From an uncultured Lachnospiraceae bacterium (lineage in GTDB: Bacteria; Bacillota; Clostridia; Lachnospirales; Lachnospiraceae): 41,116 nt of DNA. Below the pieces are notes generated by a model. It did no database searches, was not told the origin of the DNA, and saw only the letters and a list, made by a program, of their open reading frames with translations. Below are positions 12,446 through 34,533 of the stretch, piece after piece (within the stretch, counting starts at the first letter, position 1; the number at the start of each line of letters is the position of its first letter). The stretch spans positions 1 to 41,116 of the forward strand of contig CALWCS010000102.1 in NCBI GenBank assembly GCA_944376425.1, read 5' to 3'. Both the position numbers and the translations under genes were made by a program.

Positions 12446-13645
12446 ATGAAATATATCGTGGTTTTAGGAGATGGAATGGCAGACGAGCCGATTGAGGCTC
12501 TAGGCGGAAAAACACCGCTTGCCTATGCAGTGACAAAGACACTTGATGAGCTTGCGCCAAAGTCGGAGATTGGTCTTTTGCATACGATTCCGGAAGGGAT
12601 GAAACCAGGAAGTGACACGGCAAACCTTGCAGTTTTGGGATATGATCCAAGAAAATATTATTCGGGACGTTCTCCTTTAGAAGCACTAAGCATTGGGGTT
12701 CCAATGAAAGATACTGATATTGCGCTGCGGTGCAATCTTGTTACCCTTTCGGAAGAGGAACCGTATGAGGAGAAGACAATGATAGATCACAGTTCAGGAG
12801 AGATCAGCACAGAAGATGCGGCAGTCTTGCTGGAAGCAGTGAAAAAAGAACTGCAAAGTGAGACGTATCAGTTTTACACAGGAACGAGCTATCGGCACTG
12901 TCTGATTTGGAATGGAGGAGAAGTCGTAGAGCTTGCTCAGCCGCATGATATTCTGGAGAGAAAAATTGCACAGTATCTCCCAAAAGATCCTGTCCTGCGG
13001 CAGATGCAGATCAAAAGCTACGAAATATTAAAAGATCATCCAATCAATGCAGAGCGAAGAAAAAAAGGATTAAATCCTGCAAACAGCTGCTGGTTCTGGG
13101 GAGCCGGGACAAAACCGTCTCTGTCTTCTTTTGAAGAAAAAAACCATAAAAAAGGCGTGATGATTTCAGCCGTAGACCTGCTAAAAGGAATTGCAGTCGG
13201 TGCCGGAATGAAAAACATAATGGTAGAAGGAGCAAACGGTGGACTCCATACAAATTATGAGGGAAAAGCAAAAGCAGCAGTCGATGCACTTTTAAATGAC
13301 GGATATGATTTTGCCTATATCCATGTGGAAGCGCCGGATGAGATGGGACATCAAGGAAGCGTGGAGCGGAAAGTACAGGCAATTGAATACTTAGATGATA
13401 AAGTGATTCGTTATGTAAAAGAAAAAATGGATGCTTCGGGGGAAGCCTACCGTCTGCTGGTATTGCCAGATCATCCAACGCCGATTCGGGTGCGCACACA
13501 TACATCTGATCCAGTTCCGTATCTTTTATATGACAATACAGTTGAAAAACATGAACAGTGGCTTTATAATGAGGCAGAGGCAAAGAAAAGTGGAAATGAT
13601 ATCGCAGAAGGATACAAAATGATCGACCATCTGTTTGAGGTATAA
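12446..13645 (+). CDS. ApgM-like alkaline-phosphatase-superfamily enzyme, probable homoserine kinase
   Basis: The 399-residue product belongs to the archaeal-type cofactor-independent phosphoglycerate mutase family: VLGDGMADEP at the N-terminus with the metal-binding Asp, GSDTANLAVLGYDP near residue 54 with the nucleophilic Ser, the YSGRSPLEALSIG segment, then HVEAPDEMGHQG near residue 292 and LPDHPTPIRVRTHT near residue 345 with the other metal ligands. A bacterial subgroup has been proposed, and in Bacteroides reported, to be homoserine kinase. Its place between homoserine dehydrogenase and aspartokinase, with no thrB in the window, supports that role over glycolysis. Family membership is seen; the substrate is inferred from context. 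Confidence 0.82.
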   Translation: MKYIVVLGDGMADEPIEALGGKTPLAYAVTKTLDELAPKSEIGLLHTIPEGMKPGSDTANLAVLGYDPRKYYSGRSPLEALSIGVPMKDTDIALRCNLVTLSEEEPYEEKTMIDHSSGEISTEDAAVLLEAVKKELQSETYQFYTGTSYRHCLIWNGGEVVELAQPHDILERKIAQYLPKDPVLRQMQIKSYEILKDHPINAERRKKGLNPANSCWFWGAGTKPSLSSFEEKNHKKGVMISAVDLLKGIAVGAGMKNIMVEGANGGLHTNYEGKAKAAVDALLNDGYDFAYIHVEAPDEMGHQGSVERKVQAIEYLDDKVIRYVKEKMDASGEAYRLLVLPDHPTPIRVRTHTSDPVPYLLYDNTVEKHEQWLYNEAEAKKSGNDIAEGYKMIDHLFEV

Positions 13646-13718
13646 CGTCAAAAAATGAGTCTGATGTCAGAAAATGTACAGAAACCAAAAGATTCCTTCT
13701 GCCTAACAGGAGGAAAAA

Positions 13719-14928
13719 ATGCTGATAGTAAAAAAATTTGGGGGGTACTTCCGTCGGCGATAAAGAACGGATTTTCCGTGTGGCAAGGCGGTGTATGGAA
13801 GATTATCAGAAGGGACATGACGTGATCGTTGTCTTGTCTGCGATGGGAAAGACAACGGACGAGCTGATTGCAAAAGCACATGAAATCAATCCGGAAGCTT
13901 CTAAAAGAGAGATGGATATGCTTCTGACAACAGGAGAACAGACTTCGGCCGCTTTGATGGCTATGGCGATAGGGGCACTAGGAGTGCCGGCAATTTCCCT
14001 GAATGCGTTTCAGGTTCCAATGCATACAACATCCAGATATGGAAATGCGAGATTAAAGGCAATTGACACTGAAAGAATCCAACATGAATTAGAGGAACGC
14101 AAAATTGTAATTGTGACAGGATTTCAGGGAATCAATCGATATGAAGATTATACGACGCTTGGAAGAGGCGGATCAGATACCACTGCTGTGGCACTCGCCG
14201 CAGTCTTTCACGCAGATGCGTGTGAGATTTATACCGATGTAGACGGTATTTATACGGCAGATCCAAGAATCGTAAAAAACGCAAGAAAGCTAAAAGAAAT
14301 TACATACGATGAAATGCTGGATCTTGCCACGGCGGGAGCCGGTGTACTGCATAACCGTTCAGTGGAAATGGCAAAAAAATATGGAGTGACACTTGTAGTG
14401 CGTTCCAGTTTAAACAATTCAGAAGGCACAGCGGTCAAGGAGGAAGTAGATGTGGAAAAAATGTTGGTGAGCGGAGTCGCCCTTGATAAAAAAGCGGCGA
14501 GAATTTCTGTGATGGGATTAAAAGATGAACCGGGAATCGCATTTCGGCTCTTTCAGATTCTTGCTAAAAATAATATCAATGTAGACATTATTTTACAGTC
14601 TATCGGAAGGGAAAATACAAAAGATATCTCTTTTACTGTGCAAGAAGAAGAGGCAGAAGAAGTTATTTCCCTTCTGGAGCAGAATAAAACAAAAATTACT
14701 GCAAAAGAGATTACATGCCAAAAAGAAGTGGCAAAAGTTTCGATCGTAGGAGCAGGCATGATGTCAAATCCGGGAGTTGCCGCAAAGATGTTTGAGGCAT
14801 TATACAGCAGCGGAATCAATATCAACATGATTTCGACATCGGAGATTCGGATTACTGTTTTAGTGGATATCAAAGATGGCGAGAGAGCAATGAAGGCAAT
14901 TCACGATGCTTTCGAACTGTCAGAATAA
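13719..14928 (+). CDS. lysC: Aspartate kinase with an apparent frameshift near its start
   Basis: Aspartokinase phosphorylates aspartate, the first step to lysine, threonine and methionine. The natural start is ATG 13719 after AGGAGG, reading MLIVKKFGG, but a run of six G (13740-13745) puts the next codons out of frame and a stop follows in a few codons. With five G the frame would continue ...FGGTSVGDKERIF... to 14928, a 402-residue protein of normal length. The body has GRGGSDTTAVALAA, the ITYDEML segment and two C-terminal ACT domains (about residues 265-400, including ISVMGLKDEPGIA and VSIVGAGMMSNPGVA), so it is lysine/threonine sensitive in type. The downstream frame is only open from a TTG at 13738 that has no ribosome binding site. 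Either a base-call error or a true lesion. Confidence 0.88.
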
Positions 14929-14938
14929 ATGAGATTTC

Positions 14939-14967
14939 TTGACAATCATCAGAAAATATTTTATAAT
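14939..14967 (+). promoter_or_regulatory. Full-consensus sigma-A promoter of the ZTP riboswitch
   Basis: TTGACA (14939-14944), exactly 17 bases, TATAAT (14962-14967): every base matches consensus. It starts 11 bases after the lysC stop codon and reads into the riboswitch, with a predicted start near 14974. Confidence 0.88.
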
Positions 14968-14973
14968 AAAAAA

Positions 14974-15091
14974 AATAAAGAGAGCTTTTATTGCTGATGG
15001 AATAAAATGTGGAAATAACACAGTGTGATAAAAGTTCTGAACAAGCCGACCATCTGGGCAATATTTGTTTTTACAAATATTGCCCTTTTTT
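14974..15091 (+). promoter_or_regulatory. ZTP (pfl-type) riboswitch with intrinsic terminator
   Basis: A leader RNA with the layout of the ZTP/ZMP-sensing pfl motif. P1 pairs 14981-14991 with 15028-15038 (11 bp, one G-U). Inside it, CTGATGGAA carries GATGG (14996-15000), which pairs with CCATC (15050-15054) outside P1 to form the pseudoknot. P2 is TGTG (15008-15011) with CACA (15019-15022). The 3' strand reads GCCGACCATCTGGGCA, with the CTGGGCA end that is most conserved in this class. GGGC of that motif is also the base of the terminator stem (15056-15068 with 15073-15085, then TTTTTT), so binding of ZTP would prevent termination and turn the downstream operon on. The pairing is seen; class is by recall of the consensus. 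Confidence 0.83.
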
Positions 15092-15096
15092 CTATA

Positions 15097-15126
15097 TTGA
15101 TATTTCAAAATACAATCTTTTATAAA
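15097..15126 (+). promoter_or_regulatory. Possible second promoter after the riboswitch terminator
   Basis: TTGATA (15097-15102), an 18-base spacer and TATAAA (15121-15126). If active it would bypass the riboswitch. It is weaker than the upstream promoter. The remaining 170 bases to the start codon show no other element. Confidence 0.35.
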
Positions 15127-15295
15127 AACAGGAAAATCCTCTGAGAATGGATCAACTCCAGTGAAAACACAGAGAGCAAGAGCGGCTTGTCATATGAGAA
15201 ATTCTTTCGATGGAATCCTGACATAAAAGATAGAAAGATGAGTAAAAAAGACACAAAGAACAAAAAATTATTTTTTTGACAAGGAGGAGGATATT

Positions 15296-17134
15296 GTGAG
15301 CAGATTGAGTATTGTCACTCAGAACAAAGCGCAAAAGACAGTGGAAGAACTGTATAAAGATCTGGAAAGACGGATCAGCGCAAGCCCGTCAGGACTTTGT
15401 CCGGTCGATCTGGCTGCTTCATTTTTGAAACTGTGCCATGCGCAGTCCTGCGGAAAATGCGTTCCGTGCAGAGTCGGATTAGGACAACTGGAAAAGTTAA
15501 TGGAAAAAGTTTTAGACGGAGAAGCACAGTTAGATACGATCACGTTGATTGAAAAGACGGCTAAAAACATTTTCTATTCGGCAGACTGTGCGATTGGATA
15601 TGAAGCCGCAAAAATGGTATTAAAAGGAATTAAAGGATTCCGAGATGACTTTGAAGAGCATATTTTAAGAGGAAGATGCAAGATGGAGTTAAATCAGCCC
15701 GTACCATGTGTTTCACAATGTCCGGCAGGAGTAGATATTCCCGGATATATTGCCCTTGTGGCAGAAGGAAGATATGGAGATGCGGTACGCCTGATTCGAA
15801 AAGACAATCCGCTTCCGGCTGTCTGTGGGCTGATCTGTGAGCATCCATGTGAAGTCAGATGCCGCAGAACTTTGATTGATGATCCGGTTAATATTCGCGG
15901 ACTGAAACGATTTGCAGTAGATCATGCAGGTGAGGTTCCGCTTCCTGTCCCGGCAGTTTCAACCGGAAAGAAGATTGCTGTAATCGGAGGAGGACCAGGA
16001 GGAATCAGTGCAGCTTATTATCTTGCCTTGATGGGACATGACGTTACTATTTTTGAACAGAGAAAGAAACTAGGCGGGATGCTGCGTTATGGTATTCCAA
16101 ATTATCGTCTGCCAAGAGAAATTTTGGATCAGGAGATTAAACATCTTTTAAGCATCGGTATTCATGTAAAGACAGAAATAACCGTAGGAGAAAATCCAAG
16201 TATCGTAGATTTAAGAAAAGAATACGATGCCGTCTACATTGCAATTGGAGCACAGACAGACCGAAAAATCGGGATGGAAGGAGAGGATGCCAAAGGTGTG
16301 ATTTCCGCAGTGGAAATGCTTAGAAGCATTGGAGATGAAGAAATGCCTGACTTTGCAGGAAAAGACATTATTGTGATAGGCGGCGGAAATGTAGCAATGG
16401 ATGTGGCACGTTCAGCAATTCGTCTTGGAGCAAAGAGACTGAGAATTGCTTACAGAAGAAGAGCCGCTGACATGACGGCAATGCAGGAAGAAGTAGAAGG
16501 AGCTGTGGCGGAAGGATGCGAGCTGCTCGATCTGCATGCTCCTCTTAGAATTGAGAAGGATCAAGAGGGAAACGTAGCAGCGCTCTGGGTAAAACCTCAG
16601 ATTATCGGTCCGGTACAAAACGGCAGACCGATACCGATGGATTCTGAACAAGAAGATCTGCGTCTTGCATGTGATCTTGTCATTGTAGCGATTGGACAGG
16701 GAATTGAGTCAAAAGCATTTGCAGAACAAGGAATTCCGGTAAAACGAGGTGTGATTGATGCATTGGGATGGAGCGGCATCAATACAAAAGATATTACAGG
16801 AGTATTTGCCGGCGGAGACTGCGTGACCGGACCGGCAACTGTTATCCGTGCGATTGCGGCAGGAAAAGTGGCAGCAGCAAATATTGACGATTATCTTGGA
16901 TATCATCACACGATTTCTTCCGATGTTGAAATCCCGGAAGTACGGCTAGATGACAGAAAGAGCTGTGCAAGAGTTAATATGAGAGAACGCCAGGCATCAG
17001 AACGGGCAAAAGATTTTCAGCTGATAGAGCAGGGAATGACGTTAGAAGAAGCCAATCAAGAAGCAAGACGTTGCCTGCGCTGCGATCATTTTGGGTTTGG
17101 CTGTCTGAAAGGAGGCAGAGTAGAAAAATGGTAA
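15296..17134 (+). CDS. Iron-sulfur flavoprotein: NuoF C-terminal 4Fe-4S domain fused to a GltD-like NAD(P)H oxidoreductase
   Basis: The 612-residue product is the likely electron-exchange partner of the following hydrogenase. Domains in order: a NuoF-type 4Fe-4S domain (about residues 35-120) with SCGKCVPCR and a fourth Cys in SADCAIG; a GltD/dihydropyrimidine-dehydrogenase type Fe-S domain (about 135-210) with CVSQCPAGVDIPGY and CGLICEHPCEVRCRR; an FAD-binding Rossmann fold, IGGGPGGISAAYY (about 229); an NAD(P)-binding fold, IGGGNVAMDVARSA (about 361); and a C-terminal Cys pair RRCLRCDHFG. It lacks the FMN/NADH core of true NuoF or HydB. GTG 15296 follows AAGGAGGAGG. The stop overlaps the hydrogenase start, so the two are translationally coupled. 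It is not a classical glutamate synthase small subunit, since no GltB is present. Confidence 0.85.
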   Translation: MSRLSIVTQNKAQKTVEELYKDLERRISASPSGLCPVDLAASFLKLCHAQSCGKCVPCRVGLGQLEKLMEKVLDGEAQLDTITLIEKTAKNIFYSADCAIGYEAAKMVLKGIKGFRDDFEEHILRGRCKMELNQPVPCVSQCPAGVDIPGYIALVAEGRYGDAVRLIRKDNPLPAVCGLICEHPCEVRCRRTLIDDPVNIRGLKRFAVDHAGEVPLPVPAVSTGKKIAVIGGGPGGISAAYYLALMGHDVTIFEQRKKLGGMLRYGIPNYRLPREILDQEIKHLLSIGIHVKTEITVGENPSIVDLRKEYDAVYIAIGAQTDRKIGMEGEDAKGVISAVEMLRSIGDEEMPDFAGKDIIVIGGGNVAMDVARSAIRLGAKRLRIAYRRRAADMTAMQEEVEGAVAEGCELLDLHAPLRIEKDQEGNVAALWVKPQIIGPVQNGRPIPMDSEQEDLRLACDLVIVAIGQGIESKAFAEQGIPVKRGVIDALGWSGINTKDITGVFAGGDCVTGPATVIRAIAAGKVAAANIDDYLGYHHTISSDVEIPEVRLDDRKSCARVNMRERQASERAKDFQLIEQGMTLEEANQEARRCLRCDHFGFGCLKGGRVEKW

Positions 17135-18864
17135 AGATAACAATCAATGGAAGACAGATAGAAGCAAAAGAGGGAATGACGATTTTAGATGCTGCAGCCA
17201 GCGCCGGAATTTTGATCCCAACACTGTGTTATTTAAGAGACATCAACGAGATTGGAGCCTGCCGCGTCTGTATGGTAGAAGTAGAAGGATGTGCAAAACT
17301 GGTTACTGCATGCAACAACAAAATATGGGACGGCATGGTAGTTTACACGAATAGTCCGAAAGTCAGAGAGAGCCGGAGAAACAATGTGGAACTGATTTTA
17401 TCTCAGCATGATTGTCAGTGCGCAACGTGTGTCAGAAGCGGAAACTGTACTCTTCAGACGATCGCAAATGATCTTGGAATTTTAGATCTGCCGTTTGAAA
17501 AAGAGCTGCCTAAGACAAAATGGCCGATGGATTTTCCGCTGATTCGAGATGCCAAGAAATGTATCAAATGTATGAGATGCGTTCAGATCTGTGATAAAAT
17601 TCAGGGATTAAATATCTGGGATGTGGCGGGAACAGGCTCTAGAACAACGGTAGACGTGTCAAAAAACAGAAAGATTCAAGATGCAGACTGCGCTCTTTGC
17701 GGACAGTGCATCACACACTGTCCGGTAGGAGCACTTCGAGAGAGAGACGATATTCAAAAAGTACTGGATGTTTTGGCAGATCCGGAAAAAATTACAATTG
17801 TACAGATGGCGCCTGCCATTCGAACAGCTTGGGGAGAATCACTGGGGCTTTCCAGAGAATTCGCAACGGCAAAGAGGTTAGTCGCTGCGCTTAGACAGAT
17901 CGGATTTCAGTATATTTTTGATACCACATTTGGAGCTGATTTAACGATTATGGAAGAAGGAAGTGAATTTCTGGAGAAAATCAAAAACGAAGAAAATGAG
18001 AAATTTCCAATGTTTACTTCTTGCTGCCCAGGATGGGTACGGTTTATGAAGTCTCAGTATCCGGACATGGCTGATCAGCTTTCAACGGCAAAATCACCAC
18101 AGCAGATGTTTGGAGCAATTGCTAAGTCGTATTATGCCAAACTTCTCAATGTAGAACCGGAAAAAATTTGCTCGATTTCTATTATGCCATGTATCGCCAA
18201 AAAGCAGGAAGCGGCATTGCCTACGATGAACAGCGCAGGGGCAGGACAGGATGTAGATATTGTATTGACAACAAGAGAGATTGTGCGTTTAATCCGTTCA
18301 GAACATATTTTGGTGGAGAATCTAAAAGAAGAAGAATTTGATATGCCGCTTGGAATGGGATCCGGAGCCGGAGTGATTTTTGGAGCGACAGGCGGAGTGA
18401 TGGAGGCAGCACTGAGAAGCGCCTACTATCTTTTAACTGGCAGAAATCCAGATCCAGATTCATTTAGCAAAGTACGCGGAATGGATGGCTGGAAAGAAGC
18501 AGAATTTAATCTTGCCGGGAAAACGGTAAAAGTAGCGATTGCAAGCGGACTTGGAAACACGAGAAGACTGATGAAGGCGATTCGCAAAGGAAAAGTTTCC
18601 TACCATTTTGTAGAAATTATGGCCTGTCCGGGCGGATGCGTCGGAGGCGGAGGACAGCCGATCAAAGATGGAAAAGAATTCGCAAAAGAGAGAGGCAGCG
18701 TTTTGTATGGGCTGGACAAGGTCAATCATCTGCGCTTCTCACATGAGAATCTTGCGGTACAGAAATGTTATCAGGATTATTTAGGAGAGCCATTGTCGCA
18801 TCTTGCGCATGAGCTGCTTCATACCGACCACCATGCATGGAAAATGCCTGGAGAAGAAAAATAG
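17128..18864 (+). CDS. [FeFe] hydrogenase, multi-cluster (M3-type) catalytic subunit
   Basis: It interconverts protons and H2 with an H-cluster in the cytoplasm. All three H-cluster motifs are present: TSCCPGW (residues 297-303), MPCIAKKQE (from M353) and EIMACPGGCVGGG (from E496). Upstream accessory clusters are a plant-type [2Fe-2S] domain (C34, C45, C48, C62), a His-Cys3 motif (HDCQCATCVRSGNC), and two 4Fe-4S motifs (CIKCMRCVQIC and CALCGQCITHC). Length 578 residues fits the M3 form. The ATG at 17128 overlaps the previous gene by 7 bases. With a GltD-like partner and no NuoE-like subunit, the pair resembles the glutamate-synthase-linked group A2 of hydrogenase classification rather than the trimeric bifurcating type. 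Maturases HydE, HydF and HydG are not in the window. Confidence 0.95.
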   Translation: MVKITINGRQIEAKEGMTILDAAASAGILIPTLCYLRDINEIGACRVCMVEVEGCAKLVTACNNKIWDGMVVYTNSPKVRESRRNNVELILSQHDCQCATCVRSGNCTLQTIANDLGILDLPFEKELPKTKWPMDFPLIRDAKKCIKCMRCVQICDKIQGLNIWDVAGTGSRTTVDVSKNRKIQDADCALCGQCITHCPVGALRERDDIQKVLDVLADPEKITIVQMAPAIRTAWGESLGLSREFATAKRLVAALRQIGFQYIFDTTFGADLTIMEEGSEFLEKIKNEENEKFPMFTSCCPGWVRFMKSQYPDMADQLSTAKSPQQMFGAIAKSYYAKLLNVEPEKICSISIMPCIAKKQEAALPTMNSAGAGQDVDIVLTTREIVRLIRSEHILVENLKEEEFDMPLGMGSGAGVIFGATGGVMEAALRSAYYLLTGRNPDPDSFSKVRGMDGWKEAEFNLAGKTVKVAIASGLGNTRRLMKAIRKGKVSYHFVEIMACPGGCVGGGGQPIKDGKEFAKERGSVLYGLDKVNHLRFSHENLAVQKCYQDYLGEPLSHLAHELLHTDHHAWKMPGEEK

Positions 18865-19196: not shown

Positions 19197-22100
19197 ATGA
19201 ATCGAAACAGAAAGAGAATGTCCGCTAAGGTGGTAAGCGCAGTATTGGCAGGGAGCATGATTTTATCAAGTATGACAGTCTTGGCATCTGAACTCCAAAA
19301 GGGACAGGCAAATGAGTACACACAGGCAAACTTAGAGAATGCAGAAAACGGCACAGGGCTTGGAACAGTCTACGAAGAGGGAACCTTCAGCATCGATACA
19401 GATTATGATGATGAAAGTTTTTATAATAATGTAGACTCAGAAGATACGACGTTTCCGGAGTCCTATCCCAAAGATAATATGGAGCCGATGGATGATGAAA
19501 CATTAGAGGCAACAATCGATGCACTGATGAAGACAATGACGTTTGAAGAGAAGATTAATCTAGTTTCCATGAATACAGATCCGGAAGGACGTTCTGGAGT
19601 CGGATATATCATCGGTGTTCCAAGACTTGGTGTACCGGAAAGCCGGATGCACGACGGACCGTCAGGAATCAGCACTGGAAATCAGGATGCAGATACGTAT
19701 GTTGAGACAACCAATATGCCACTGCAGCTGACGACTTCTATGACCTGGAGTACAGAGCTTGCCTATGAATACGGTGCGGCACTTGGAAAAGAACACGTAT
19801 CGACAGGCTCAGGATGGCAGCTGGGAATGCAGATGGATTTGGCACGTACAGTACACTGGGCAAGAGCAAAAGACACGTTTGGCGAGGACTATTATCTGAC
19901 GTCTCTTCTTGCGGTTGCACAGACACAGGGACTTCAGGAAAACGGCGGTATTGCAATGGCAAAACATATCGGAGCTTATGCGACAGACGGCGATACTTCC
20001 CTTTGGGTAGAAGTAGATGAGCAGACTCTCCATACAGCATATTTATATCCGTTTGAATCGGCGGCAAAAGAAGCAACACTTGCCTCGATTATGGGAACTT
20101 ACAACCGTCTGAACGGTTTCTATACTTCCTCAAATTCTTATCTGCAGATTGATGTTCTGCGCGATATGTGGAATTGGCAAGGCGCTATGGTTCCAGACTG
20201 GGGTGCAAACCAGGAATTCTCTATGAGTCTGGGAACTACGATTTCACAGGATAACGCAGAAAGCGTAGAAGCGGCATTTCGTTCCGCTGCTTCTCAGGGA
20301 ATCTTAACAATTGAAGATTTAGACGCGGCAGCAAGGACAACGCTGTATGCATACGGCGTCAGCGGTTATTTAAATTTAGTGGAAATCGATGAAAATGGAT
20401 ATGCCAAAGAAGAACCAGGGCGTACAGAACCGATTAAATTTGAAAGAACATATGAAGAAGACCGCGAAGCAGGACTTTATGAAGAAAATAATGAAGTAGC
20501 AAAAGAGATTGCAGAAAAGGGAATCGTATTATTAAAAAATGAAGATGATACTTTGCCTTTAACCGAAGAAGACTATACAGGCGATAACTCCGTTGCGTTA
20601 ATTGGATACGGTGCGGTCAATCTGATTGGAGGAACAGGAGGAGAACGTTCCTTTGGCGTCTTAGAATATATGACAACTCCATATGAATCTATGGTAGAAA
20701 TTGCAGGAGAAGATGCGAATATTACGACCGCAATTTTGAATAATGTTCATGGAACCGATATTCCTGCTGAACTTGTATATCAAAGCGAAGACGGAAGTGA
20801 AAATGGATGGGTACGCACAAATGGAATTTTGTCAGAAGATGTGGTAGAACAGCAGGCAATGGGACCGGATGCTGCAACTTCTGCAGATGCGACTCCGGCA
20901 GAACCAGTGGAAAATCCGGGAACGGAGACAGGCAGTCTGGTGGCTGTGGAAGAGGAAGTCTATCTGACAACGGGACAGAGAGATTTTAAAAATGCCGAAG
21001 ACGGAACGGCCATGACAGGAGACGAAGCATATACTTGGACTGGATATGTAGAAGCGCCCGAATCTGGAGAGTATTCCTTTGTCATTCAGTCAAATGGAGG
21101 AACTGCAAATGTAAAGATTATTGCAGACGGTGAAGAATTGACTGCTACAGTATCAGACGGAGTATCTTGGGACTACTATACAACAGAAGGATTGAATTAC
21201 TCTACGGTAAACGCAACTTTGGAAGCAGGACAACGATATCAAGTCGTTGTGACAGCACAGCATACCTCTGCTTATCGCGATCAGGGCGTAAAACTGACAT
21301 GGATCCTGCCGTCTCAGGAAGAGACTGACATGGAAAATGCATTAAAAGCAGCAGCAGAAAATGACACCGTTGTTATGTTTACAAGAACGGGTGCAACAGG
21401 ACACGGACCAGTATTCCAGACAGATTTCGATATCTCCCTCGATGAAATAGAAGAGATCAAAGCGGTACAGCAGGCAGCAAAAGAAAATGGAAATAAATTT
21501 GTACTTGTTGTATTTGGACGCTCTGGCTTTTCATTTGAAGGAGACTGGCTGGATGATACCGATGCACTGTTAGTGCCATTCTATGCAGGTCAGTCGGCAG
21601 GAACTGCACTTGCAGAAATTTTGACCGGAGTGGTAAATCCAAGTGCGAAACTGACCGTAACACTGCCAAAGACAAATGCAGACACGTTGCTGACATATGG
21701 ATATTATGATAATCCGGACTCTGAGACCAATTACAATACAGAGCGTGCCGGAGACCAGTCTCAGTCGGAATATACGGCATATTATACAGAAGGATTAAAC
21801 TTCGGATACCGCTGGTATGATGCAGAAGATGTAGAGCCACAGTATGCATTCGGATATGGGCTTTCTTACACAACGTTTGAATACAGTGATTACAGCGTAA
21901 CAGTAAACGACGACCATACCATCGATGTCAGCGTGACGATCACAAATACAGGAGACGTGACAGGCGACGAAATTGTACAGGTATATTTAGGAGCGGCAGA
22001 GGTTCCGGAAGGTGTCCAAATGGTAGAAAAACAGCTTGCAGCATTTGCAAGAGTAGAAGATATTGAACCTGGGGAGAGTAAGACTGCTACAATGCAGATC

Positions 22101-22262
22101 AGTGAGAGAATGCTGTCGTATTGGGATTCTAGCCTGGAACTGATAGAAAGAGAGGATGGAACAAAAGATAAATGGGTTCTTGCGACAGGAGACAGAGACG
22201 TAATGATCGGATCTTCTTCCGATAACCTGACGTATACAGAGACAGTTACGATTACAGAATAA
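19197..22262 (+). CDS. Secreted GH3 family glycoside hydrolase with PA14 domain (copy 1)
   Basis: Predicted extracellular beta-glycosidase (beta-glucosidase or related) of 1021 residues. An N-terminal Sec signal peptide (MNRNRKRMS, then a hydrophobic core ending near VLAS) is followed by the GH3 TIM barrel (about 75-400) with KHIGAY and the nucleophile in MVPDWGA (D334), a second alpha/beta domain (LLKNEDDTLPL, FAGQ-type FYAGQSAGTALAEILTG) into which a PA14 domain is inserted (about 594-712, WTGYVEAPESGEYSF), and a C-terminal fibronectin III-like domain (about 897-1010). PA14 in GH3 enzymes shapes the substrate pocket. No wall-anchor motif is visible. It has its own promoter and AAGGAGG site. 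A close paralogue lies 2.2 kb downstream. Exact sugar specificity cannot be read. Confidence 0.93.
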   Translation: MNRNRKRMSAKVVSAVLAGSMILSSMTVLASELQKGQANEYTQANLENAENGTGLGTVYEEGTFSIDTDYDDESFYNNVDSEDTTFPESYPKDNMEPMDDETLEATIDALMKTMTFEEKINLVSMNTDPEGRSGVGYIIGVPRLGVPESRMHDGPSGISTGNQDADTYVETTNMPLQLTTSMTWSTELAYEYGAALGKEHVSTGSGWQLGMQMDLARTVHWARAKDTFGEDYYLTSLLAVAQTQGLQENGGIAMAKHIGAYATDGDTSLWVEVDEQTLHTAYLYPFESAAKEATLASIMGTYNRLNGFYTSSNSYLQIDVLRDMWNWQGAMVPDWGANQEFSMSLGTTISQDNAESVEAAFRSAASQGILTIEDLDAAARTTLYAYGVSGYLNLVEIDENGYAKEEPGRTEPIKFERTYEEDREAGLYEENNEVAKEIAEKGIVLLKNEDDTLPLTEEDYTGDNSVALIGYGAVNLIGGTGGERSFGVLEYMTTPYESMVEIAGEDANITTAILNNVHGTDIPAELVYQSEDGSENGWVRTNGILSEDVVEQQAMGPDAATSADATPAEPVENPGTETGSLVAVEEEVYLTTGQRDFKNAEDGTAMTGDEAYTWTGYVEAPESGEYSFVIQSNGGTANVKIIADGEELTATVSDGVSWDYYTTEGLNYSTVNATLEAGQRYQVVVTAQHTSAYRDQGVKLTWILPSQEETDMENALKAAAENDTVVMFTRTGATGHGPVFQTDFDISLDEIEEIKAVQQAAKENGNKFVLVVFGRSGFSFEGDWLDDTDALLVPFYAGQSAGTALAEILTGVVNPSAKLTVTLPKTNADTLLTYGYYDNPDSETNYNTERAGDQSQSEYTAYYTEGLNFGYRWYDAEDVEPQYAFGYGLSYTTFEYSDYSVTVNDDHTIDVSVTITNTGDVTGDEIVQVYLGAAEVPEGVQMVEKQLAAFARVEDIEPGESKTATMQISERMLSYWDSSLELIEREDGTKDKWVLATGDRDVMIGSSSDNLTYTETVTITE

Positions 22263-23066: not shown

Positions 23067-23267
23067 ATTGATATCCTCTCTTTCGTATCATATTGTTTTC
23101 ACTATTTATTGGTGATATTATAAAAGAAAATATAGTTCTTAGCAATGATTATAATGCCGTCAATTCATGACAAATATGCTGATGATATTAGAATAGAACC
23201 AAAAGCCATGAAGTAATCTGTGTGGCATCATAGGTCAAAAGGTCATGTTGAAAAAAGGAGTGACAAA

Positions 23268-24227
23268 ATGAAAAAACAGGAACTGGAACTGGTTGCACAT
23301 GAAATTCTTCCCGGGCTGCGTTTCTATGTGACGCGGCTTAAGTACTGTGAGCTTCATTTACATATTGATGCAGAATTTTGCCTCGTTTTGGACGGATCAG
23401 GGAAAATACACACGATGCAGAAGGATACACCGATAAAAAAGGGAGATTTTTTTTACTTTAATTCTCTGGAAGCCCATGAAGTTACAGCTGTTTCTGATAA
23501 AATGCTGATCTTTGGGGTACAGTATTCTCCGGCAATTTTGAATATATGCGATACTGAGCTTATGAGACTTCGAGTGACAGAGATGATTCCGACAAAATGT
23601 TTAAAAAAAGCCGGCATCTATGAGTATCTGTCTGATCTGATGATAGAAGCTGGGATTACTTATTTTAAAAAAGAGAATTTATTTGCTCTGCATTGTATGA
23701 GCCTGATCAATGAAATCCTCTATCTGTTTCTAAACTGTGTGCCCGTGATCGATTCCCGCTCTTATGATAATCAGTCTTACAAGCTTCGAATGAATCGCCT
23801 AAAGAGGCTGCTGACATATATTGATGAGCATTATATGGAGCGGCTGACAATCAAAGAGCTGGCAAAGACGGAACATTTGTCGGTTTCCCGCCTGTCTCAT
23901 TTTTTTCAGGAAATGCTGCAGATGTCATTTCAGACTTATCTGTCACAAAAACGATTCAGCCGTGCCTGCGAACTTCTTGCTGATCCTGCCTGTACTGTGA
24001 CGAGGGCAGCTGAAGAAAGCGGTTTTTCTTCCACGAGATATCTAAATCAGATGATGTACAGACATTTGAATATGTCTGCGATGGAATATCATTATTTTCA
24101 TAAGGGAAATTTAGGCGCACTCCATTATTCCGGACGGCAGGATTATTTGTGTACTGCTGAGCAAGCCAGGGAAATATTAGAACAATATTCTGCCGGAAAA
24201 TCAGATTTTTTGCATTGTCTGGAGTGA
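23268..24227 (+). CDS. AraC family transcriptional regulator
   Basis: The 319-residue product has an N-terminal cupin-like ligand domain (about residues 10-90, with HIDAEFCLVLDGSGKIH and KKGDFFYFNSLEAHEV) and a C-terminal double helix-turn-helix (about 185-285, LTIKELAKTEHLSVSRLSHFFQ and VTRAAEESGFSSTRYLNQMMYRHL). About 35 residues follow the DNA-binding part. ATG 23268 follows AAAGGAG; the frame is open to 23220 but without a binding site. It lies between the two GH3 paralogues and divergent from the membrane protein, so it is the likely sugar-responsive activator of this locus. That target set is inferred from position only. Confidence 0.92.
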   Translation: MKKQELELVAHEILPGLRFYVTRLKYCELHLHIDAEFCLVLDGSGKIHTMQKDTPIKKGDFFYFNSLEAHEVTAVSDKMLIFGVQYSPAILNICDTELMRLRVTEMIPTKCLKKAGIYEYLSDLMIEAGITYFKKENLFALHCMSLINEILYLFLNCVPVIDSRSYDNQSYKLRMNRLKRLLTYIDEHYMERLTIKELAKTEHLSVSRLSHFFQEMLQMSFQTYLSQKRFSRACELLADPACTVTRAAEESGFSSTRYLNQMMYRHLNMSAMEYHYFHKGNLGALHYSGRQDYLCTAEQAREILEQYSAGKSDFLHCLE

Positions 24228-24295: not shown

Positions 24296-24447
24296 CAAAT
24301 CATCATAAGTAATAATTTTTCGGCTAATAACAAACAGCGCGTTAAGCGGGGGCAAAGAACAGGCTGTTTGAAAACAATGCAGGATTTATGAAAATGATCT
24401 GTATGGAAAATTGGCATGGAAAAAGATAAGAGAAAGGGGATTTGAAA

Positions 24448-27400
24448 ATGAATCGTAACAGAAAAGCATTGACAAAAAAAGTGATGGGTGCTGTACTGGC
24501 GGGAAGTATGGTACTTTCTAGCATGACAGTATTTGCAGAAGGACTTCAGGAAGGACAGGCAAACGAATATACACAGGCAAATATTGAAAATGCACAAAAT
24601 GGCACAGGACTTGGAACCGTTTATCCGGAAGGAACATTCAGTGTAAATACAGATTTTGACGATCCAAGTTTTTATACACAGGTAGATCCTGAAGATACTA
24701 CCTTCCCTGAAGTTTATCCAAAGGATCAGATGACTCCGATGGATGATGAAACTTTGACAAAAACAATCGATGCCTTGATCAAAACAATGACTTTTGAGGA
24801 AAAAATCAATTTGGTATCGATGAACACAGACCCGGAAAATCGTTCCGGCGTTGGATATATTACAGGTGTTCCAAGACTTGGCGTACCGGAAAGCCGTATG
24901 CATGACGGTCCATCCGGAATCAGTACAGCAACACAGAGTTCTGATTCTTATGTAGAGACGACAAATATGCCACTGCAGCTGACGACTTCTATGACCTGGA
25001 GTACGGATCTTGTGTACGCATACGGCGAAGCACTTGGAAAAGAACACGTATCGACAGGCTCAGGATGGCAGCTGGGTATGCAGATGGATTTAGCAAGAAC
25101 ACCGCACTGGGCAAGAGCAAAGGACTCTTTTGGAGAAGACTACTATCTGACTTCCAGATTAACGGTTGCAGAGACACAGGGTCTTCAGGAACACGGCGGT
25201 ATCGCGATGGCAAAACACATCGGCGCTTACGGTACAGACGGAGATACTTCTCTTTGGCTGGAAGTAGATGAACAGACGCTTCATACCGCATATTTATATC
25301 CATTTGAGACAGCGGCAAAAGAGGCGAGAGTGGCTTCTATCATGGGAACTTACAACCGTCTGAATGGATTTTATACTTCCTCAAATTCCTATTTGCAAAT
25401 AGAAGTTCTGCGTGATATGTGGAACTGGCAGGGAGCTATGGTTCCAGACTGGGGCGCAAACAAAGAATTTTCCATGAGTCTTGGAACAACGATTTCTCAG
25501 GACAATGCAGAATCAATCGAATCAAGTTTCCGCTCAGCGGCATCACAGGGCATCATGACAATTGAAGATTTAGATGCAGCAGCAAGAACAACACTGTATG
25601 CATACGGTGTCAGCGGATACTTAAATCTGGTAGAAATTGACGAAAACGGATATGCAAAAGAAGAGCCGGGACGCACAGAACCAATTCGATTTGAAAGAAC
25701 ATACGAGGAAGATCGTGCAGCAGGACTTTATGAAGAAAACAATGAAGTGGCAAAAGAAATTGCAGAAAAGGGTATTGTATTGCTGAAGAATGAAGATGAT
25801 ACACTTCCTTTGACAAGTGAAGATTATACAGGCGACAACTCAGTTGCACTGATTGGATATGGGGCAGTGAATCTGGTAGGCGGAACAGGAGGAGAGCGTT
25901 CCTTTGGTGTTCTGGAATATATGACAACTCCATATGAATCTATGGTAGAGATTGCAGGAGAAGATGCCAATATCACAGCAGCAATTTTAAACAATGTTCA
26001 TGGAACGGATATTCCTGCGGAACTTGTATTCCAAAGCGAAGATGGTTCTGAAAACGGATGGGTACGCACAAATGGAATTCTGTCAGAAGATGTGGTAGAA
26101 CAAAGAGGATTCGGCGGACCTGGCGGTCCGGGAGGTCCACAGGCAGAAGCGGAAACAGAAGAAACAGAAGCACCAGAACCGATTGAAAATCCTGGAACAG
26201 AACTGGGAAGTCAAGTAGGTATCGAAGAAAGCATTCATCTGACGACAGGAAAGAGAGATTTCAAGAATGCCGAAGAAGGAAACGCTCTGACAGGAGAGGA
26301 AGCATATACTTGGACAGGATATGTAGAAGCGCCGGAATCCGGAGAATATTCGTTTGTAATTCAGACAAACGGCGGAAATGCAAATGTAAAAATTAGTGGA
26401 GCCGGAGAAGAAGATATTACGGCAAGCGCATCTGATGGAGTATCTTGGGATTATTATACAACAGAAGGATTGAATTACTCTACAGCAACTGCAACGTTAG
26501 AGGCAGGACAGAGATATAAAGTCGTTGTGACAGCACAGCATACTTCCTCTTACCGTGATCAAGGTGTAAAACTGACATGGATTTTACCATCTCAGGAAGA
26601 AACAGATATGGCAAATGCTCTGACAGCAGCAGCAGAAAATGACACTGTTGTTATGTTCACAAGAACAGGAGCAACAGGACACGGACCGGTATTCCAGACA
26701 GACTTTGACATTTCTCTTGACGAGATTGAACAGATCAAAGCCGTACAGCAGGCAGCAAAAGAAAACGGAAATAAATTTGTCCTTGTCGTATTTGGACGTT
26801 CCGGATTCTCATTTGAAGGTGACTGGTTAGATGATACAGATGCATTGCTCGTACCATTCTATGCAGGACAGTCTGCCGGAACGGCAATAGCAGAATTGTT
26901 GACAGGTGTTGTAAACCCAAGTGCAAAATTGACCATGACGCTTCCAAAGACAAATGCGGATACGTTGTTGACATATGGATATTATGATAATCCGGATGCC
27001 GAGACAAATTACAATACAGAGCGTGCCGGTGATCAGTCACAGTCAGAATACACCGCACATTATACAGAAGGATTAAACTTCGGATACCGCTGGTATGACG
27101 CAGAAGATGTAGAACCACAGTACGCATTTGGATATGGTCTGTCCTATACAACCTTTGAATACAGTGATTATGAAGTGACCGTAAACGATGATCATACCAT
27201 CGATGTCAGTGTGACAGTGACAAACACAGGCGACGTAAAAGGTGATGAAATCGTTCAGGTATATTTAGGAGCAGCAGAAGTTCCGGAAGGCGTTCAGATG
27301 GCAGAAAAACAGCTTGCAGCATTTGCAAGAGTAGAAGACATTGAGCCGGGAGAAAGCAAAACAGCTACAATGCAGATCAACGAAAGAATGCTGTCTTACT

Positions 27401-27537
27401 GGGATGCAAGTCTTGAATTGATTGAGAGAGAAGACGGAACAAAAGATAAATGGGTACTTGCGACAGGAGACCGCGATGTGATGGTTGGATCTTCTTCAGA
27501 CAATCTGCTTTACACAGAGACAGTAACTATTGAATAA
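24448..27537 (+). CDS. Secreted GH3 family glycoside hydrolase with PA14 domain (copy 2)
   Basis: Paralogue of the gene at 19197 with the same layout: signal peptide (MNRNRKALTKKVMG, cleavage near VFA-EG), GH3 barrel with nucleophile D334 in MVPDWGA, inserted PA14 domain, and fibronectin III-like end; 1029 residues. The two proteins are identical over most aligned positions. The clearest difference is the linker before the PA14 domain (about residues 551-585), which here is Gly/Pro then Glu rich (GFGGPGGPGGPQ) and in copy 1 is Ala/Thr/Pro rich. ATG 24448 follows AAAGGGGA and lines up with copy 1; a TTG two codons upstream is ignored. The second copy may have a different preference or simply raise dosage. 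Confidence 0.93.
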   Translation: MNRNRKALTKKVMGAVLAGSMVLSSMTVFAEGLQEGQANEYTQANIENAQNGTGLGTVYPEGTFSVNTDFDDPSFYTQVDPEDTTFPEVYPKDQMTPMDDETLTKTIDALIKTMTFEEKINLVSMNTDPENRSGVGYITGVPRLGVPESRMHDGPSGISTATQSSDSYVETTNMPLQLTTSMTWSTDLVYAYGEALGKEHVSTGSGWQLGMQMDLARTPHWARAKDSFGEDYYLTSRLTVAETQGLQEHGGIAMAKHIGAYGTDGDTSLWLEVDEQTLHTAYLYPFETAAKEARVASIMGTYNRLNGFYTSSNSYLQIEVLRDMWNWQGAMVPDWGANKEFSMSLGTTISQDNAESIESSFRSAASQGIMTIEDLDAAARTTLYAYGVSGYLNLVEIDENGYAKEEPGRTEPIRFERTYEEDRAAGLYEENNEVAKEIAEKGIVLLKNEDDTLPLTSEDYTGDNSVALIGYGAVNLVGGTGGERSFGVLEYMTTPYESMVEIAGEDANITAAILNNVHGTDIPAELVFQSEDGSENGWVRTNGILSEDVVEQRGFGGPGGPGGPQAEAETEETEAPEPIENPGTELGSQVGIEESIHLTTGKRDFKNAEEGNALTGEEAYTWTGYVEAPESGEYSFVIQTNGGNANVKISGAGEEDITASASDGVSWDYYTTEGLNYSTATATLEAGQRYKVVVTAQHTSSYRDQGVKLTWILPSQEETDMANALTAAAENDTVVMFTRTGATGHGPVFQTDFDISLDEIEQIKAVQQAAKENGNKFVLVVFGRSGFSFEGDWLDDTDALLVPFYAGQSAGTAIAELLTGVVNPSAKLTMTLPKTNADTLLTYGYYDNPDAETNYNTERAGDQSQSEYTAHYTEGLNFGYRWYDAEDVEPQYAFGYGLSYTTFEYSDYEVTVNDDHTIDVSVTVTNTGDVKGDEIVQVYLGAAEVPEGVQMAEKQLAAFARVEDIEPGESKTATMQINERMLSYWDASLELIEREDGTKDKWVLATGDRDVMVGSSSDNLLYTETVTIE

Positions 27538-33577: not shown

Positions 33578-33597
33578 AAGGAACGAACAAAGAAAAT

Positions 33598-33734
33598 TCT
33601 TCGGGGCAGGGTGGAATTCCCTACCGGCGGTAAAGTCCGCGAACCGCAAAAGCGGTTGATCCGGTGACTTCTGGCAAAAGATATGATATGGAAGAATTCC
33701 GGAACCGACAGTATAGTCTGGATGAGAGAAGAAA
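33598..33734 (+). promoter_or_regulatory. FMN riboswitch (RFN element)
   Basis: The conserved parts of the FMN aptamer appear in order: TCGGGGCAGGGTGGAATTCC, CTACCGGCGGTAAAGTCCGC, a variable hairpin CCGCAAAAGCGG, TGATCCGGTG, then AATTCCGGAACCGACAGT and GTCTGGATGAGAGAAGA, which closes on the start. It senses FMN and would turn the downstream riboflavin transporter off when FMN is high. Confidence 0.96.
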
Positions 33735-33769
33735 GATCGTACATGATATTCAGAAACGTATGGAAAAAG

Positions 33770-33906: not shown

Positions 33907-34533
33907 ATGAGCAGTAATACACAGACAGCAACAAAATTTACCGGAAAAAATAATATTCGGACAATGGTACAGATCGGTATGTTAGGGGCCGTAGCAATGA
34001 TTTTGATGTCTTTTGAAATACCGCTTTGGTTTGCACCCCCGTTTTACAAGATTGATCTGAGTGAACTTCCTGTTATGATCGGATGTTTTGCAATGGGACC
34101 TGCGGCAGGCGCGTTGATTGAATTTGTTAAAGTGATTCTGCATATGGCAATCCGGGGAACTACGACAGCAGGAGTTGGAGATCTTGCAAACTTTTTGATC
34201 GGATGTGCTCTGATTGTACCGGCAGGATTGATTTATAAAAAAGTACGTACCAAAAAAGGGGCAATGATAGGAATGACCGTTGGAACTATAGTTATGACAG
34301 TACTTGGATGTGTGATCAATGCCTGGATATTGCTTCCGTTTTATGCGACGGCATCTGGAATGCCGCTGGATGCACTGATTCAGATGGGAACCGCTATCAA
34401 TGCCGGAATTCAAGATATCTTCACATTTGTGATGTTTGCAGTTGCACCGGTTAATATTTTAAAAGGAGAGCTGGTCTCTGTCCTGACATTACTGTTATAT
34501 AAAAATATTCGTCCGATTTTGCAAAGAGCATAG
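33907..34533 (+). CDS. ribU: Riboflavin ECF transporter S component RibU
   Basis: RibU is the membrane protein that binds riboflavin and, with the shared EcfAA'T energising module, imports it. The 208-residue product has about six hydrophobic helices. N-terminal IRTMVQIGMLGAVAMILMSF and PPFYKIDLSELPVMIG match the RibU pattern, and HMAIRGTTTAGVGDLANFLIG is the family's conserved loop. The FMN riboswitch directly upstream confirms the substrate. RBS AAAGGAG. The ECF module is not in this window. Confidence 0.94.
   Translation: MSSNTQTATKFTGKNNIRTMVQIGMLGAVAMILMSFEIPLWFAPPFYKIDLSELPVMIGCFAMGPAAGALIEFVKVILHMAIRGTTTAGVGDLANFLIGCALIVPAGLIYKKVRTKKGAMIGMTVGTIVMTVLGCVINAWILLPFYATASGMPLDALIQMGTAINAGIQDIFTFVMFAVAPVNILKGELVSVLTLLLYKNIRPILQRA

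Follow-up and report, generated by a model that had tools for sequence, protein, structure and literature searches.

An ON-type transcriptional riboswitch of the ZTP class very probably controls (with a probability of about 0.85, as judged from sequence comparison) a two-gene operon for a putatively NADP-linked, A2-like [FeFe] hydrogenase in an uncultured Lachnospiraceae bacterium; positions 1–41,116 of its contig CALWCS010000102.1 are called here the window. ZTP riboswitches switch on purine and folate one-carbon genes when 10-formyl-THF is short, and the present case appears to be a known RNA class at a new address. The association of this riboswitch with a hydrogenase was not found in open PMC text, where a single paper names both and has its hydrogenases behind tungsten-cofactor RNAs; an earlier mention in the gene tables of the 2015 class paper is possible.

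The leader and its aptamer in the window

The leader lies between lysC, which ends at 14928, and a 612-codon gene. The following features were located in it and in the operon.

14939–14967, plus strand: sigma-A type promoter, TTGACA-17-TATAAT, matching the consensus at 12/12 positions and equalled by 0/200 shuffles
14980–15066, plus strand: ZTP/ZMP riboswitch aptamer (RF01750), 35.3 bits over the full model and 69.3 bits with R1, a covariance model made without the pseudoknot from these hydrogenase leaders, the window leader included
14981–14991, plus strand: P1 5′ arm, pairing with 15028–15038; two-sided changes in 8/10 scored pairs, 90% paired
14996–15000, plus strand: pseudoknot 5′ strand GATGG; 97% paired, two-sided changes in 3/5 pairs
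15008–15022, plus strand: P2 hairpin TGTG...CACA, from folding; 83% of alignment cells paired
15028–15038, plus strand: P1 3′ arm, from alignment covariation
15045–15059, plus strand: P3, GCC 15045–15047 with GGC 15057–15059, plus the conserved CTGGGC end (15054–15059), from the Rfam match and alignment
15050–15054, plus strand: pseudoknot 3′ strand CCATC, from alignment covariation
15056–15091, plus strand: intrinsic terminator with U tract (hairpin 15056–15085), its 5′ arm sharing GGGC 15056–15059 with the aptamer; from folding and a terminator search
15281–15290, plus strand: ribosome-binding site AAGGAGGAGG, read from the sequence
15296–17134, plus strand: 612-aa flavoprotein with a NuoF C-terminal 4Fe-4S domain and a Fer4_20/GltD-NfnL-like FAD and NADP(H) module, from domain and structure-sequence matches
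17128–18864, plus strand: [FeFe] hydrogenase HydA, 578 aa, with Fer2 and NuoG-type clusters, from domain matches and H-cluster motifs

The match to the ZMP-ZTP aptamer was obtained in a local Rfam scan, in which all 86 model positions were aligned (E 2.7e-4). Its score is just under the RF01750 gathering cut-off of 39 bits, and a whole-window Rfam scan at that cut-off left the element unlisted, whereas the local scan recovered it. An earlier reading of this DNA from its letters alone (the sequence-only reading) had proposed a comparison with the Rfam ZTP/pfl model, and the outcome was this full-length match at a score slightly short of the cut-off. The P1 and P3 stems, the pseudoknot between J1/2 and the P3 loop, and the CTGGGC core that define the class structurally are all present. 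Rfam alignment and folding located each element which that reading had named, namely an 11-bp P1 (with one G-U pair), a small P2, the GATGG/CCATC pseudoknot and the CTGGGC end, and the leader as a whole folds far better than its own shuffles (z = -4.75). The full-consensus promoter that it had noticed was not equalled in any of the shuffles, and the gap of about 200 bases that it had remarked before the first gene corresponds to 15092–15280, an untranslated leader with no recognised features. The terminator is strong, with 13 bp.

Orthologous leaders and their descent

A species-genome collection was scanned with the 612-aa protein and 80 loci were kept. As the sequence-only reading had suggested might be surveyed, a ZTP leader was found directly before the same gene pair at 17 other loci, with its CTGGGC end 58–217 bases 5′ of the start codon, in Paralachnospira, Choladousia, Pullilachnospira, Blautia and relatives. 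One carrier, Blautia sp. An81 (L066), is a named strain. Fifteen of these 17 leaders were over the Rfam cut-off (44.6–59.3 bits), the remaining two scoring 35.8 and 20.1, and this series of orthologues removes the doubt raised by the sub-cut-off score of the window copy. An alignment of 15 distinct leaders shows pairing in 85% of its cells and two-sided changes at 14 pairs (P1 8/10, pseudoknot 3/5), measures that were reached by at most 1/500 shuffles. The common pseudoknot form in this group is GACGG/CCGTC, and the GATGG/CCATC of the window is one of the compensatory forms; the earlier claim that both strands had changed together, as covariation, was confirmed across the 15 leaders by 97% paired cells and three two-sided pairs. 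The central claim of that reading, a ZTP riboswitch in front of an [FeFe] hydrogenase operon, is supported by the full-length Rfam match, the orthologous leaders and covariation. Moreover, the terminator that it had described as sharing GGGC with the aptamer end recurs throughout, since in 18/18 leaders the 3′ GGGC of the aptamer also opens the terminator 5′ arm, and a promoter matching at 10/12 positions, with TTGAC[AC], precedes nearly all orthologous leaders, the exception being L048.

Applied to the remaining 63 loci, R1 found nothing beyond a decayed leader in L049 (32 bits), with CCGGGGC in place of CTGGGC. The protein tree unites L049 with the 18 ZTP-bearing rows (support 82) and sets beside them a group of 13 that have no ZTP leader; the simplest reading is one gain followed by decay in one lineage. 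This sister group keeps the gene pair and acetyl-CoA synthase without the leader; the hydrogenase therefore does not depend on ZTP control, and the idea that Wood-Ljungdahl genes alone explain such control was rejected on the same ground.

Weak and decayed ZTP leaders before the hydrogenase pair were observed at L048:3795-3879 and L049:3350-3434. Acetyl-CoA synthase was present in 18/20 genomes. The two exceptions, G066 and G067, are the genomes with these leaders, and neither CdhC/acetyl-CoA synthase nor any other clear ZTP element was found in them. Leader decay accompanies the absence of this enzyme in a single lineage only, and the coincidence is anecdotal. Loss of AICAR transformylase was rejected as its cause, purH being present in both genomes; fhs is also present in both, matched in G067 as a fragment only. 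Among the three genomes of the window's genus, the hydrogenase pair occurs only in the window's genome, and in G002 (L164) the apgM-lysC order, found in the window at 12446–14928, is kept without the pair, so gain or loss of the operon took place inside this genus.

The aptamers of this group differ from the usual RF01750 form at one J1/2 base (window 14993), which is a G facing U, not the usual A, in every hydrogenase leader read. The same G was observed in leaders of formate/nitrite transporter (FNT) and DUF1576 genes, while A is kept in purine leaders and fhs leaders are mixed; the G is possibly a natural variant of the ZTP aptamer. With R1, the fhs leader of the window genome scores 62 bits and its purO leader 33.5, on which basis an fhs leader may have been the source from which the hydrogenase leader was copied.

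The operon proteins and the one-carbon regulon

The hydrogenase subunit has complete H-cluster motifs L1, L2 and L3 (TSCCPGW, MPCIAKKQE and EIMACPGGCVGGGGQP) and matches PF02906 with 318.6 bits. In its flavoprotein partner, the NuoF-type C-terminal 4Fe-4S domain is PF10589, and the best solved relatives are chains of PDB 9n5u (NfnA), 9bov and 8oh5 (303–346 bits). The motif GGGNxAMDxAR...YRR, found in 54/54 orthologues scored, would be of the NADP type by comparison with the GltD/NfnL family, and NADP(H) specificity is predicted for the partner from such motifs; against this, the NCBIfam name for the subunit is NADH-dependent A6. By gene architecture the pair would be a group A2-like hydrogenase, with the reservation that its GltD-like partner lies upstream and the HydDB rule concerns the downstream gene. 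In Tissierellia, and likewise in some Lachnospiraceae that have no ZTP leader, the pair has an NMT1/THI5-like ABC transporter as its neighbour (L075, L077, L080-L085, L053, L070, L074).

As in the glutamate-synthase-linked group A2 of HydDB, HydA adjoins a GltD-domain protein and a domain search found no NuoF flavin domain in the operon proteins; here, however, the GltD-like gene precedes hydA, and its product includes a 4Fe-4S domain of the NuoF type. The GltD/NfnL-like FAD and NADP(H) module with N-terminal 4Fe-4S clusters is shared with NfnL/NfnA, Stn and the NADP-type bifurcating complexes represented by the three PDB entries above, but here it is fused to the NuoF-type cluster domain and paired with HydA, with neither a NuoF flavin domain nor a molybdopterin subunit. 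The HydA of the bifurcating hydrogenase HydABC (group A3) has the same cluster domains, whereas the present operon is without HydB (FMN/NADH-binding) and HydC. As for the RNA, P1, P2, P3, the pseudoknot and the CTGGGC end are those of the ZTP/ZMP class (pfl motif), and the terminator overlaps P3 as in known ON switches; the difference lies downstream, where a hydrogenase and a flavoprotein take the place of purH, fhs, pfl, glyA or folD.

Two further ZTP elements over the cut-off were found in the window genome, one preceding a PurO-type IMP cyclohydrolase and the other a formate-tetrahydrofolate ligase (fhs), of which the contig reaches only the beginning. The contig with acetyl-CoA synthase (C143) bears another fhs start, and since no ZTP element was found there, the ZTP-controlled fhs is not the copy beside acetyl-CoA synthase. 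Further ZTP elements of the ZTP-bearing genomes stand before fhs, before purH, or before purO together with AICAR transformylase. An FNT gene (PF01226) lies directly behind a ZTP riboswitch in G061 (L126), and in G063 (L132) a gene like it comes after fhs; a DUF1576 membrane protein, which may be a transporter of formate or of some other purine or one-carbon compound, is encoded directly behind ZTP riboswitches in G062 and G064 (L130, L137) and behind fhs in L162. Because the same genomes put fhs, purH/purO, FNT and DUF1576 genes behind ZTP switches, the hydrogenase can be placed in a one-carbon regulon. PFL was not among the ZTP targets at the sites read, and it was not found in four genomes, which as MAGs are possibly incomplete.

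A possible role for the hydrogenase and its alternatives

The ON switch described in Thermosinus carboxydivorans (PMC7337938) has the same GGGC-overlap layout. With GGGC common to aptamer and terminator, P3 with the pseudoknot and the terminator are mutually exclusive, and therefore ligand should favour readthrough; from its riboswitch class, the leader would be expected to respond to ZMP/ZTP. In the absence of these ligands, the aptamer's 3′ GGGC would pair downstream to form the terminator, and transcription would end near 15091. A shortage of 10-formyl-THF would let ZMP and ZTP accumulate and bind the P3/pseudoknot core, and the bound core would hold GGGC in P3, allowing the polymerase to proceed into the hydrogenase genes.

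The metabolic setting of the carriers bears on what such control could serve. A Molybdopterin-family protein (PF00384) was absent from 20/20 genomes searched, the window's included, with controls positive in 11/14, so the carriers look formate-dehydrogenase-less; since many of these genomes are MAGs, the absences are soft. Gut Blautia were likewise reported to be without formate dehydrogenase (PMC12773636, PMC11338639). In B. luti, formate is an electron acceptor that enters the methyl branch (PMC12773636), and therefore formyl-THF is claimed by both this branch and purine synthesis. On this view the carriers are acetogens lacking formate dehydrogenase, and their folate methyl branch uses up both formyl-THF and reductant. 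The induced hydrogenase would re-oxidise NADPH and release H2, lowering the reductive drain; NADPH oxidation would pull FolD towards formyl-THF from serine, and H2 release would substitute as an electron sink for the formate-reducing branch, stalled when formate is short. That the hydrogenase vents NADPH as H2 when 10-formyl-THF is short is a tentative proposal, with chances somewhat below even. The wider proposition, that ZTP governs H2 production in gut acetogens without formate dehydrogenase, the A2-like enzyme being a reductant valve that protects 10-formyl-THF from reduction in the Wood-Ljungdahl methyl branch, is more doubtful.

The opposite direction of electron flow, in which the enzyme would oxidise H2 and, at times of folate and purine shortage, feed their synthesis with NADPH (or reduced ferredoxin), is rather unlikely. 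HydDB lists [FeFe] hydrogenases of this architecture as proposed to reduce NAD(P) with H2, and H2 is usable by gut acetogens (PMC12773636); however, by pathway reasoning, extra NADPH would drive the FolD and methyl-branch reactions at the expense of 10-formyl-THF, and this is the very metabolite that is short at high ZTP. Direct formate supply, with the hydrogenase as part of a hydrogen-dependent CO2 reductase or a formate-hydrogen lyase, is very improbable. It would suit the presence of fhs and a formate transporter in the same regulon, and hydrogenases linked to formate dehydrogenase do exist (group A4, HydDB), but the survey of Molybdopterin-family proteins found no partner for an A4/HDCR enzyme in the 20 genomes, on which account it was rejected, and gene neighbourhoods showed no HycB or formate dehydrogenase gene adjoining the pair. 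Without formate dehydrogenase, H2/CO2 and formate are not interconvertible by the usual enzymes. The sequence-only reading had suggested that H2 turnover sets redox or formate supply; its riboswitch before the hydrogenase/flavoprotein operon is supported, and proves to be conserved in a clade, while direct formate supply finds no support, and the NADP-type GltD/NfnL motifs of the flavoprotein suggest redox-setting as the better half of the idea.

It is also improbable that the window leader is decayed or bypassed, with transcription of the operon starting at a promoter 3′ of the terminator. The window copy does belong to the lowest-scoring leaders of the group, leaders do decay in the lineage of L048 and L049, and a promoter-like TTGATA-18-TATAAA (10/12) lies at 15097–15126, which the sequence-only reading had feared could bypass the switch. 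This site is no better than about 1/10 of shuffles (equalled in 31/300), and in several orthologues only 23–45 nt follow the terminator, hardly space for a second promoter; the full-consensus promoter 5′ of the window aptamer, its invariant core with the compensatory pseudoknot change and the strong terminator argue for a working riboswitch.

Group A2 [FeFe] hydrogenases were listed with an undetermined role (PMC5037454), were called functionally unresolved in the rumen (PMC6776011) and, as of 2025, were said to need study in the human gut (PMC12578642). A clade-conserved, ligand-specific riboswitch would name the condition that wants the enzyme, 10-formyl-THF shortage. The question of the hydrogenase's role thereby becomes open to direct test, and gut H2 output would be linked to folate and purine status and so to the effects of antifolate drugs. 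If the enzyme does act as a reductant valve, an A2-type hydrogenase would acquire a physiological role, and a redox enzyme would join the folate, purine and formate genes for which this regulon is known.

Elsewhere in the window, an ordinary FMN riboswitch (33593–33737, 107.6 bits) precedes the substrate-specific component of an ECF transporter (33907–34533). Two similar GH3-family glycosidases with PA14 domains, of about 1,020–1,030 aa each, are encoded at 19197–22262 and 24442–27537, and between them lies a gene resembling an AraC-type regulator (23220–24227).
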